A DNA stretch of 64,000 nucleotides from Natrinema marinum (GTDB lineage Archaea > Halobacteriota > Halobacteria > Halobacteriales > Natrialbaceae). Positions 25,426 through 28,026 of the stretch are shown here, piece after piece. Numbering within the stretch: the first letter of the stretch is position 1; each line of letters begins with the position of its first letter. The translations under genes and the position numbers were made by a program. The notes under the pieces are model-generated. The model was not told where the DNA came from. It did not search any database and saw only the letters and a program-made list of their open reading frames with translations. The DNA lies in contig NZ_CP100763.1 in NCBI RefSeq assembly GCF_024296685.1, forward strand, positions 2,294,001 through 2,358,000, in the 5' to 3' direction.

Positions 25426-25763
25426 GCGTTCGCGTTACGTGTCCGTCTCGCGGCCAGCGCCGCGTAGGCGGCCCGCGATGGATCGACGAGCGGATAGTCG
25501 AATCGGTCGCCGTCGACGAGAACCGCTCCACGGTCGTTCGAGGCGGTCTCGGCACAGCCGATCGCCGATTCGGACGGGCGACTGCGCCACTGGTTCGCCA
25601 CCGAGTGGTATAATATAAATTATCGTGCCAGTGGAACCACCGACGTACCAAACAATGCAGGGTGAATAGCTAATCGTGTTGAATTACAAGAGAACGTACT
25701 TGTCATGCGTCCGTATACACGCGAGTCGACGACGGCCGAGGGAACGGAGCGAAAGGGGGTCGA
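25426..25763. other. 338-bp AT-richer promoter region upstream of the H-NOX gene
   Basis: The spacer contains a conspicuous AT run, ggtataatataaattatcg (25605-25624), and a second, weaker gttgaattacaag near 25679. Both lie well upstream of the ATG at 25764, so the H-NOX/chemoreceptor transcript may have a leader of tens to over 100 nt, unlike most genes here. The ORFs crossing it are not convincing. Confidence 0.45.
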
Positions 25764-26417
25764 ATGCACGGAATAATTCTGAAGACGCTGCAGGCGTTCG
25801 TCGTCGACACGTACGGCGAGGACGCCTGGCTGGCGGTCCAGCGAGACGCCGACATCGAGGAGAAAGTCTACGTGCCGGTCACGGTCTATCCGGACGGCGA
25901 TGTCTACGAAATCGCGCGGACCGCCGGCGAACTCACCGACCAGTCTCCGCGGACGATCCTGACCCAGTACGGCGAGTGGGTCGTTCCGGCGCTGCTCGAG
26001 ACCTACGATCTTCACATCGACGACGAGTGGCAGGGACTCGAGTTGATCGCGAACATCCAGCAGTTCCACACGTCGCTGCGGACGCGAGACATGACGACGG
26101 TGACGACGCCCCGAATCCGCTCCGAACGGATCGACGAAAACCGCGTGCGGATCACCTACGACTCCGACCGAAAGCTCTGTGACGTTGCCCGCGGCGCGAT
26201 TCAGGGCGTCGCCGAGCGCTTCGACGAGGAATTGGTGGCCGAGGAGCGGACGTGTATGCACGAGGGCGACGATGCCTGTCGGTTCGATATCCGGCGGCCC
26301 GTGTCCGCACGTCCGGGCGTCGCGGCGGACTCGAGCACCGAAGATGCCGCGGAGACGGACGTCGGGTTCGAGTTCGACTCGTCGGCCGACGCGGGAACCG
26401 GAGGAACGCATGACTGA
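25764..26417 (+). CDS. H-NOX heme-NO-binding sensor protein
   Basis: 217 aa. The first 180 residues match the H-NOX domain: start MHGIILKTLQAFVVDTYGED, proximal heme ligand His102 in NIQQFHTSL, and the heme-propionate motif YxSxR as Tyr132-Ser134-Arg136. Cys139, Cys164 and Cys172 occur at the positions that bind structural zinc in proteobacterial H-NOX proteins; the fourth ligand is not at 161 (Glu) but His166 is close. The tail (about 180-217) is acidic and disordered. No distal Tyr typical of O2-binding members is obvious, so NO sensing is inferred. It overlaps the chemoreceptor gene by 8 nt, strongly implying a functional pair. Confidence 0.92.
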   Translation: MHGIILKTLQAFVVDTYGEDAWLAVQRDADIEEKVYVPVTVYPDGDVYEIARTAGELTDQSPRTILTQYGEWVVPALLETYDLHIDDEWQGLELIANIQQFHTSLRTRDMTTVTTPRIRSERIDENRVRITYDSDRKLCDVARGAIQGVAERFDEELVAEERTCMHEGDDACRFDIRRPVSARPGVAADSSTEDAAETDVGFEFDSSADAGTGGTHD

Positions 26418-28026
26418 GGCCGCGACGGCCGCCGACGGCGAGTCGCCGATACCGGCGTCGATCCAGTCGCAGCGCCCGTTTGGCTTCGCCATCGCGGTCG
26501 TCTGTCTTGGCGTGGTCGCCGTCAGCGCCGCCGCGATCGGGCTCGGCGAGGTTTCGGTGACGGTCATCGGCGTCGGCCTCGCCGGCGCGGTCGCAACGGG
26601 TACGAGCGCGGGGGTCGTCGCGGCGGTCTCCGACGCACGAGACGCACCGCGGGAACGGGACAACCTGCGCGACGGGATCGCCGAGGTGACCGATCGGACG
26701 GCGCGGCTCGCCGACGATGACCCGGACGTGTCCTTCGCGACCGATCGGGACGACGAATTCGCCCGGCTCGAGGCGGCCCTTGCCTCGGTGCAGCAACGGC
26801 TCGCGGCGGGCGAGCGGACCGATCGGTCGCTCGACGATCTCGAGCGGACGGTCGAAACCCACGCCGAGACGACGCGAGCGGTCGCCGAGGGCGATCTCAC
26901 CCGGCGGTTCGAGGGGTCGGACGACCACGGTGCGATCGACGACTTGGCCGGCAACTCGAACGCGATGCTCGCCGAGATCGAGGACACGTTCGGGACGCTG
27001 AAGTCGTTCTCCGGCGAGGTCGTCACCTACAGCCGCGAACTCACCACGAGCATGGAGACGGTCCGCGCGGAGGGCGAGCGGACCAGCGAGTCGCTGACCG
27101 CGGTCGTCAGCGACAACGAGGAGCAAAACGAGCAGCTGCGAACCGTCGCGGCCGAGATGGAGTCGTTCTCGACGACGATCGAGGAGATCGCCGCGACGGC
27201 ATCAGAGGTCGCCGACACCGCGGACAAGACCGCCCGCGCCGGCCAGGAGGGGAGCCGCGCCGCGGACGACGCGATCGAGGGGATGGACGTGATCGACGCG
27301 GAGACCGAACGCACCCTCGAGGAGATCGAGGAACTCGAGGCCGAAGCCGAGCGGATCGACGACCTCGTCGAGTCGATCAGCGACATCGCCGAGCAGACCA
27401 ACATGCTGGCGCTCAACGCCAATATCGAGGCGACGCGGTCCGACAGCGGCGGCGAGCAAGGGTTCGGCGCGGTCGCCGACGAGATCCAGAACCTCTCCGA
27501 GGAGGTCTACGAGTCGGTCCAGGCCGTCGAAGAGCGCCTCGAGGGACTCAAACGCCGGGCGATCGCGGCGGCGGACGAGGTCCGGACGAGCCGCGATCGC
27601 ATCGAGGACAGCGTCGCCGACGTCGAGGCGGCCGCGGGCGCACTCGAGCGGATCGCCGACCTCGCCGAGCGGACCAACGACGGCGTCCAGGAGATTTCCG
27701 CGGCGACCGAACAGCAGGCCTCGGCGACAGAAGAGGTCGTCGTGCTGGTCGAAAACGCCGCCGAGACGAGCGACGAGACGGCCCGAACCTCCGCCAGAGC
27801 GGCTCGACGGGCGTCCGCTCAGGCCGACGCCCTCTCTCACGTCGCTCGCAGCGCGACCGTCCTCACCGAGCAGGCCGGCGAGCTGAACGCCCAACTCGAG
27901 CGTTACGACACCGAGAGCGGCTACGACCTCCCCGAAGCGCGAACCGCGGACGACGTGGATCCGGAAGCGGTCTCGACGGCCGACCCGACGCCGGGGACGG
28001 TCGACGGCGGTAGCGGGAGCCGATAG
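26410..28026 (+). CDS. Methyl-accepting chemotaxis protein partnered with H-NOX
   Basis: 538 aa from ATG 26410. Two adjacent hydrophobic segments near the N-terminus (GFAIAVVCLGVVAVSAAAIG and VSVTVIGVGLAGAVATG) have almost no loop between them, so there is no extracytoplasmic ligand domain. A HAMP-like region follows (AEGDLTRRFEG), then the long coiled coil with the hairpin tip IAEQTNMLALNANIEATR that binds CheA/CheW, and Gln/Glu-rich methylation helices. With no sensor domain of its own, it should receive the signal from the cytosolic H-NOX protein encoded immediately upstream. Output would be flagellar/archaellar taxis. Confidence 0.93.
   Translation: MTEAATAADGESPIPASIQSQRPFGFAIAVVCLGVVAVSAAAIGLGEVSVTVIGVGLAGAVATGTSAGVVAAVSDARDAPRERDNLRDGIAEVTDRTARLADDDPDVSFATDRDDEFARLEAALASVQQRLAAGERTDRSLDDLERTVETHAETTRAVAEGDLTRRFEGSDDHGAIDDLAGNSNAMLAEIEDTFGTLKSFSGEVVTYSRELTTSMETVRAEGERTSESLTAVVSDNEEQNEQLRTVAAEMESFSTTIEEIAATASEVADTADKTARAGQEGSRAADDAIEGMDVIDAETERTLEEIEELEAEAERIDDLVESISDIAEQTNMLALNANIEATRSDSGGEQGFGAVADEIQNLSEEVYESVQAVEERLEGLKRRAIAAADEVRTSRDRIEDSVADVEAAAGALERIADLAERTNDGVQEISAATEQQASATEEVVVLVENAAETSDETARTSARAARRASAQADALSHVARSATVLTEQAGELNAQLERYDTESGYDLPEARTADDVDPEAVSTADPTPGTVDGGSGSR

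Follow-up and report, generated by a model that had tools for sequence, protein, structure and literature searches.

In bacteria, H-NOX (heme-NO-binding) proteins with a Tyr in the distal heme pocket bind O2 and are fused to methyl-accepting chemotaxis proteins (MCPs), while those without this Tyr are NO sensors that keep out O2 and have kinases or cyclases as their targets (PMC12329717, PMC8738867). In the Tt/Cs fusions of strict anaerobes (Caldanaerobacter/Thermoanaerobacter), the H-NOX sensor feeds a membrane-anchored MCP domain within the same polypeptide, and the distal Tyr holds O2. The NO-sensing H-NOX proteins of Shewanella and Vibrio are stand-alone proteins with an apolar distal pocket and Cys residues at positions 139, 164 and 172, and the gene next door encodes the partner, i.e., HnoK or a diguanylate cyclase. 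In the bacterial proteins the proximal His is displaced by NO, and helices A-C and F provide the partner surface (PMC7108781).

In haloarchaea, two systems are comparable. Sensory rhodopsin II (SRII) and its transducer HtrII are encoded by a gene pair, where the sensor is a separate, membrane-bound retinal protein and the transducer is an MCP with two transmembrane (TM) helices and no ligand domain. Heme-based gas sensing via an MCP is found in HemAT, which is a soluble O2 sensor composed of a globin fused to the MCP.

Here, we describe a gene pair in a 64,000-nucleotide stretch (referred to as the window) of the Natrinema marinum genome, which is 3.77 Mb in size and assembled in one contig. 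The pair consists of an H-NOX gene and an MCP gene on the + strand, i.e., two open reading frames that overlap by 8 nt in a haloarchaeon, in contrast to the single bacterial polypeptide of the Tt/Cs fusions. It resembles the Shewanella and Vibrio systems in its stand-alone H-NOX, except that the partner is an MCP. It resembles SRII/HtrII in the architecture of the transducer, but in place of a membrane-bound retinal protein it has a soluble sensor of the heme type, so that contact with the MCP must be on the cytoplasmic side. As in HemAT, which this genome also encodes (L165), heme-based gas sensing via an MCP is proposed, but by an H-NOX rather than a globin and with sensor and transducer as separate proteins.

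The upstream gene (25764-26417) encodes an H-NOX protein of 217 residues. It matches the profile PF07700 at 116.6 bits (E 1.3e-33; curated cut-off 25.5) and also V4R at 40.5 bits, the latter being expected for the H-NOX superfamily. In the AlphaFold2 model (pLDDT 84.8), residues 1-180 form a folded domain, followed by an acidic tail (181-217) of low confidence. The closest structure in the PDB is 4u9b, the NO complex of the S. oneidensis H-NOX (Foldseek E 9e-15, target TM 0.88), and a second structure comparison with this entry (VIA) gave Z 22.8 and an rmsd of 2.3 over 179 residues. The residues that a first-pass annotation had picked out are all present, i.e., the proximal heme ligand His102 (codon cac, 26067-26069), the heme-propionate motif YxSxR with Y132, S134 and R136 (26157-26171), and Cys139 (26178-26180), Cys164 (26253-26255) and Cys172 (26277-26279), which together span 26178-26279. 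When 23 His-bearing homologues from haloarchaea were aligned, none of these residues varied. The heme-contacting Pro116 is also present, and the gene is under purifying selection (dN/dS about 0.14-0.24).

PF07700 was found above the cut-off in 84 of 391 haloarchaeal genomes. Sequence within about 6 kb on either side of nearly all of these matches was collected, which yielded 111 loci with 114 H-NOX sequences. Their tree splits cleanly into clade I (44 sequences at 41 loci), in which His102 is kept in every sequence, and clade II (70 sequences at 70 loci), in which it is absent from every sequence (0/70). The window protein belongs to clade I, where Pro116 is invariant as well.

The residues lining the distal pocket of the window H-NOX are apolar (L9, V74 and V141). 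Val141 is found at the position of Tyr140 in the Tt protein, a position occupied in clade I by V, L, F, W or I and in none of the 44 sequences by Tyr. Because the heme pocket lacks the O2-holding Tyr, NO is the most probable ligand, and the alternatives are CO or thiol redox signaling; the pocket predicts that O2 is excluded and that NO, possibly CO, is bound. That the pair instead responds to CO or O2, e.g., in aerotaxis, appears quite unlikely, even though the known H-NOX-MCP fusions of strict anaerobes do bind O2 (PMC8738867, PMC12329717) and a His-bearing relative from an actinobacterial metagenome-assembled genome (MAG; L154, 31% identity) adjoins a gene of the prismane/CO dehydrogenase family and a Crp-type regulator. 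The residue required for stable O2 binding is replaced by Val, and an MCP of the protoglobin (HemAT-type) kind is already present in the same genome. For the actinobacterial MAG itself, the surroundings of the H-NOX gene hint at sensing of CO or NO.

A second difference from the Tt/Cs fusions is found in the Cys site. The three residues Cys139, Cys164 and Cys172 correspond to the zinc-site cysteines of the S. oneidensis H-NOX, and all three are found in 44/44 clade I sequences. The fourth ligand position, 161, is His or Gln in the zinc-site H-NOX proteins of groups 2/3 (PMC7108781), including those of Shewanella and Vibrio, but Glu in the window protein and in 41 of the 44 clade I sequences. 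This site raises the possibility of a taxis receptor for which the signal is oxidant or thiol redox chemistry at the three Cys, with the heme being secondary. Cys oxidation switches the H-NOX proteins of V. cholerae and Caulobacter, i.e., the site reads oxidants in both genera (PMC7108781, PMC12329717), and the Caulobacter protein binds NO yet signals only via Cys oxidation (PMC12329717). Moreover, although clade II has no His, the three Cys are retained in most of its sequences (61-65 of 70), such that the site persists where the heme ligand is gone. However, His102, YxSxR and Pro116 are invariant in clade I, and none of them would be needed for sensing by thiols alone; with Glu at position 161 the metal site is putative, and an H-NOX from another archaeal group, described below, is found beside CheA without any of the Cys residues. 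Taken together, we regard signaling by thiol redox as unlikely.

The downstream gene (26410-28026) encodes an MCP of 538 residues, which matches PF00015 at 89.9 bits (E 2.2e-25). Two adjacent TM helices comprise residues 23-45 and 50-73 in the AlphaFold2 model (26476-26628; low confidence) and approximately 27-45 and 52-70 according to hydropathy. In the model, a long antiparallel hairpin comes next, and its tip IAEQTNMLALNANIEA (27385-27432, + strand), which is the CheA/CheW contact region, is near-invariant among the paired MCPs. No ligand domain was found, in agreement with the first-pass annotation, and no HAMP domain was matched in Pfam at E 0.1, with relatives giving sub-threshold matches only. 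The gene is under purifying selection (dN/dS 0.29-0.34). Among the six MCPs encoded in this genome it is the only one without its own sensor: four have ectodomains of roughly 250-290 residues and a HAMP domain, and one is the protoglobin form.

The N-terminal part of a profile built from the paired MCPs matches the SRII transducer HtrII (E 3.6e-9). HtrII, too, depends on a second protein for its input. The same match could be taken to mean that the window MCP is itself a sensory-rhodopsin transducer and that its link to H-NOX is incidental. This is most improbable, and we have rejected it, because the three rhodopsin-family genes of the genome are located at other sites and none of the H-NOX loci has a relative of these genes within 6 kb. 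Separately, a distant rhodopsin homologue adjoins an MCP with an ectodomain in this genome (L163/L188, G000:C1:3125288-3126693), and similar rhodopsin/MCP pairs have been reported in Natrialba magadii (PMC3403918).

The stop codon of the H-NOX gene and the start codon of the MCP gene share the 8 nt at 26410-26417 (ATGACTGA, + strand), exactly the overlap given in the first-pass annotation. The same ATG at -8 is found in 16 loci and an ATG at -4 in two others, and in more distant families the genes are separated by 120-620 nt. Across clade I, an MCP is located within 6 kb at 31 of the 41 loci, encoded on the same strand and, in nearly all cases, immediately after the H-NOX gene; two of the ten loci without an MCP (L055 and L058) stop at contig ends. 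Two findings that the first-pass annotation had named as refuting, a missing PF07700 match and separation of the two genes in every relative, were thus not obtained. The corresponding number for clade II is 3/70. These three MCPs (L071, L086 and L096) were rejected as partners: they lie 1.5-3.5 kb away, have ectodomains of about 250 residues and fall outside the clade of paired MCPs. The MCP match at one further locus (L074) is truncated and weak and was left out of the evidence. Pairs are found also in Natronorubrum, Natrarchaeobius, Natrialba and Halocatena, and this recurrence in several families shows that the pairing is not a matter of chance.

The two genes also share their history. Without the truncated match, the paired MCPs fall into a single clade (SH-aLRT 97) that excludes the remaining MCPs of the window genome, and H-NOX and MCP distances correlate with r 0.96 over 27 pairs. 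In eight genomes of the same genus that lack the clade I H-NOX, the MCP orthologue is absent too (best partial matches 39-43%), whereas three controls have the orthologue at full length and 75-78% identity. Apart from the truncated match, the partner MCPs of clade I have two close TM helices and no sensor, with exceptions in the helices only: by hydropathy none was found in L070 and L072, and in L067 only the first is above threshold. The association of His with MCP linkage has a Fisher p of 1.5e-15, but this value is confounded by phylogeny and carries no weight. The pairing of H-NOX with an MCP is thus real. There is strong support for a functional pair of H-NOX and sensor-less MCP in haloarchaea, from their conserved adjacency, the 8-nt overlap, co-absence and mirrored trees, and from the presence of CheA and archaellins.

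Variations on the arrangement are found as well. At four loci (L035, L037, L061 and L153) two tandem H-NOX genes precede the paired MCP, and at the three of these that were aligned both copies have the proximal His, which possibly reflects a heterodimeric sensor. The window genome harbors a second His-bearing H-NOX (L033, G000:C1:154192-154668), which stands alone amid unrelated genes and is conserved with L048 and L075.

An H-NOX gene may be co-expressed with an MCP gene and nevertheless act mainly on another target, such as CheA directly, a histidine kinase or transcription. Bacterial H-NOX proteins bind histidine kinases (PMC7108781), the H-NOX gene adjoins cheA in the second archaeal group discussed below, and one clade I H-NOX without an MCP (L056, G142:C2) is encoded on the same strand downstream of a multi-PAS histidine kinase. 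Against this, the overlap, the co-absence and the mirrored trees all connect H-NOX to one MCP clade that has no other sensor, which makes a main target other than the MCP very unlikely. The L056 arrangement resembles the bacterial H-NOX/kinase pairs.

In a phylum-wide sample, PF07700 was found in a second archaeal group (family f16), outside the haloarchaea but within the same phylum; two of its six genomes encode McrA. Here, the H-NOX gene is part of a che cluster, which in its most complete form (L171) reads MCP, CheW, MCP, CheY, CheX-like, CheB, H-NOX, CheA, with parts of this set being found at the other loci of the family (L168-L173). The f16 proteins keep the His and YxSxR but have neither the Cys residues nor the distal Tyr, and their residues suggest an NO-type H-NOX in a lineage independent of the haloarchaeal pairs. 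This position inside a che cluster is a second link between archaeal H-NOX and chemotaxis.

Clade II is larger than clade I (70 vs 44 sequences) and has a different genomic context. In 67 of its 70 loci the H-NOX gene lies directly downstream of prs (ribose-phosphate pyrophosphokinase, PRPP synthetase) on the same strand, an adjacency that never occurs in clade I. The position of His102 is occupied by Tyr in 39 of the 70 sequences and otherwise by Ala, Thr, Val or other residues, while YxSxR/YxTxR and the three Cys are mostly kept (e.g., L034:5941-6528). Because the proximal His was reported to be absolutely conserved among some 600 homologues that a BLAST survey with the V. cholerae H-NOX returned (PMC7108781), clade II looks like a heme-independent H-NOX derivative that lost the heme ligand.

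Upstream of the pair, a conserved element CCAAACAATGCAGGG (25648-25662, + strand), which precedes the start codon of the H-NOX gene by about 100 nt, is a candidate regulatory site. About ten related loci have it at an equivalent position, and a TATA-like stretch follows it. It is the sole zero-mismatch copy in the genome; since a scan of the whole genome returned no second zero-mismatch site of the motif CCMAACARTGYRGGG, no regulon could be proposed.

The machinery for an output is present in the window genome, which contains a CheA gene (C1:286531) and archaellin-family genes. PF02895 (CheA) was found in all pair-bearing genomes except one (G182), but this nearly complete co-occurrence is uninformative because 314 of the 391 genomes have CheA. 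A source of the signal may also be present. NO is toxic and is made by NirK-type denitrification, which is encoded by many haloarchaea. The window genome has a gene for a NirK-type nitrite reductase above the family cut-off, so that the cell may make NO itself. A strict co-occurrence of NirK with the pair was not found; about two thirds of the pair-bearing genomes are above the cut-off vs 208/391 overall.

The overlap of the two genes and their joint gain or loss in relatives suggest that a dissolved gas, most likely NO, probably guides the cells as they swim. We assign a probability of about 0.57 to a two-gene gas-taxis receptor in which H-NOX binds NO and controls the co-translated MCP, which in turn sets CheA and archaellum switching. 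Heme would be held by H-NOX through His102. The pocket around the ferrous iron is apolar and would not retain O2, and NO (CO being less likely) would bind there. If the bacterial proteins are a guide, the ligand would break or strain the His102-Fe bond, move helix F and rotate the two subdomains. A surface of H-NOX would thereby be exposed or hidden, and would contact the membrane-proximal coiled-coil/HAMP-like part of the MCP. Since the MCP is anchored in the membrane but lacks a ligand domain, its detachable sensor would be H-NOX, in the same way that HtrII relies on a sensory rhodopsin. Through its tip, the MCP would then set the activity of CheA and hence archaellum switching, and the response may be either attraction or avoidance. 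The first-pass annotation had concluded that NO steers motility. The functional pair is strongly supported, but this claim goes beyond the evidence: the pocket predicts that O2 is excluded and thus fits CO as well as NO, the Cys site allows redox sensing, and both heme binding and taxis are predictions.

H-NOX proteins, MCPs and their fusion were known already. For the split, NO-type archaeal form, no description was found in the open-access literature searched; the same search returned no NO chemoreceptor described in Archaea and no paper that treats H-NOX together with haloarchaea or Natrinema. A broader proposal, for which we consider the chances about even, is that NO-taxis is widespread in archaea, that its sensor is a soluble NO-type H-NOX working in trans with a dedicated, HtrII-like sensor-less transducer, breaking the bacterial rule by which O2 sensors are the ones joined to MCPs, and that control of chemotaxis by H-NOX arose or was retained in two or more archaeal lineages, namely in the haloarchaeal pairs and in the che operon of the lineage with McrA.

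The contrast between a His-bearing clade tied to MCPs and a His-less clade tied to prs offers a test of the role of H-NOX after loss of heme binding. The split between sensor and transducer offers a clean route, beside SRII/HtrII, to understanding how an MCP array comes under the control of a detachable heme sensor in haloarchaea.
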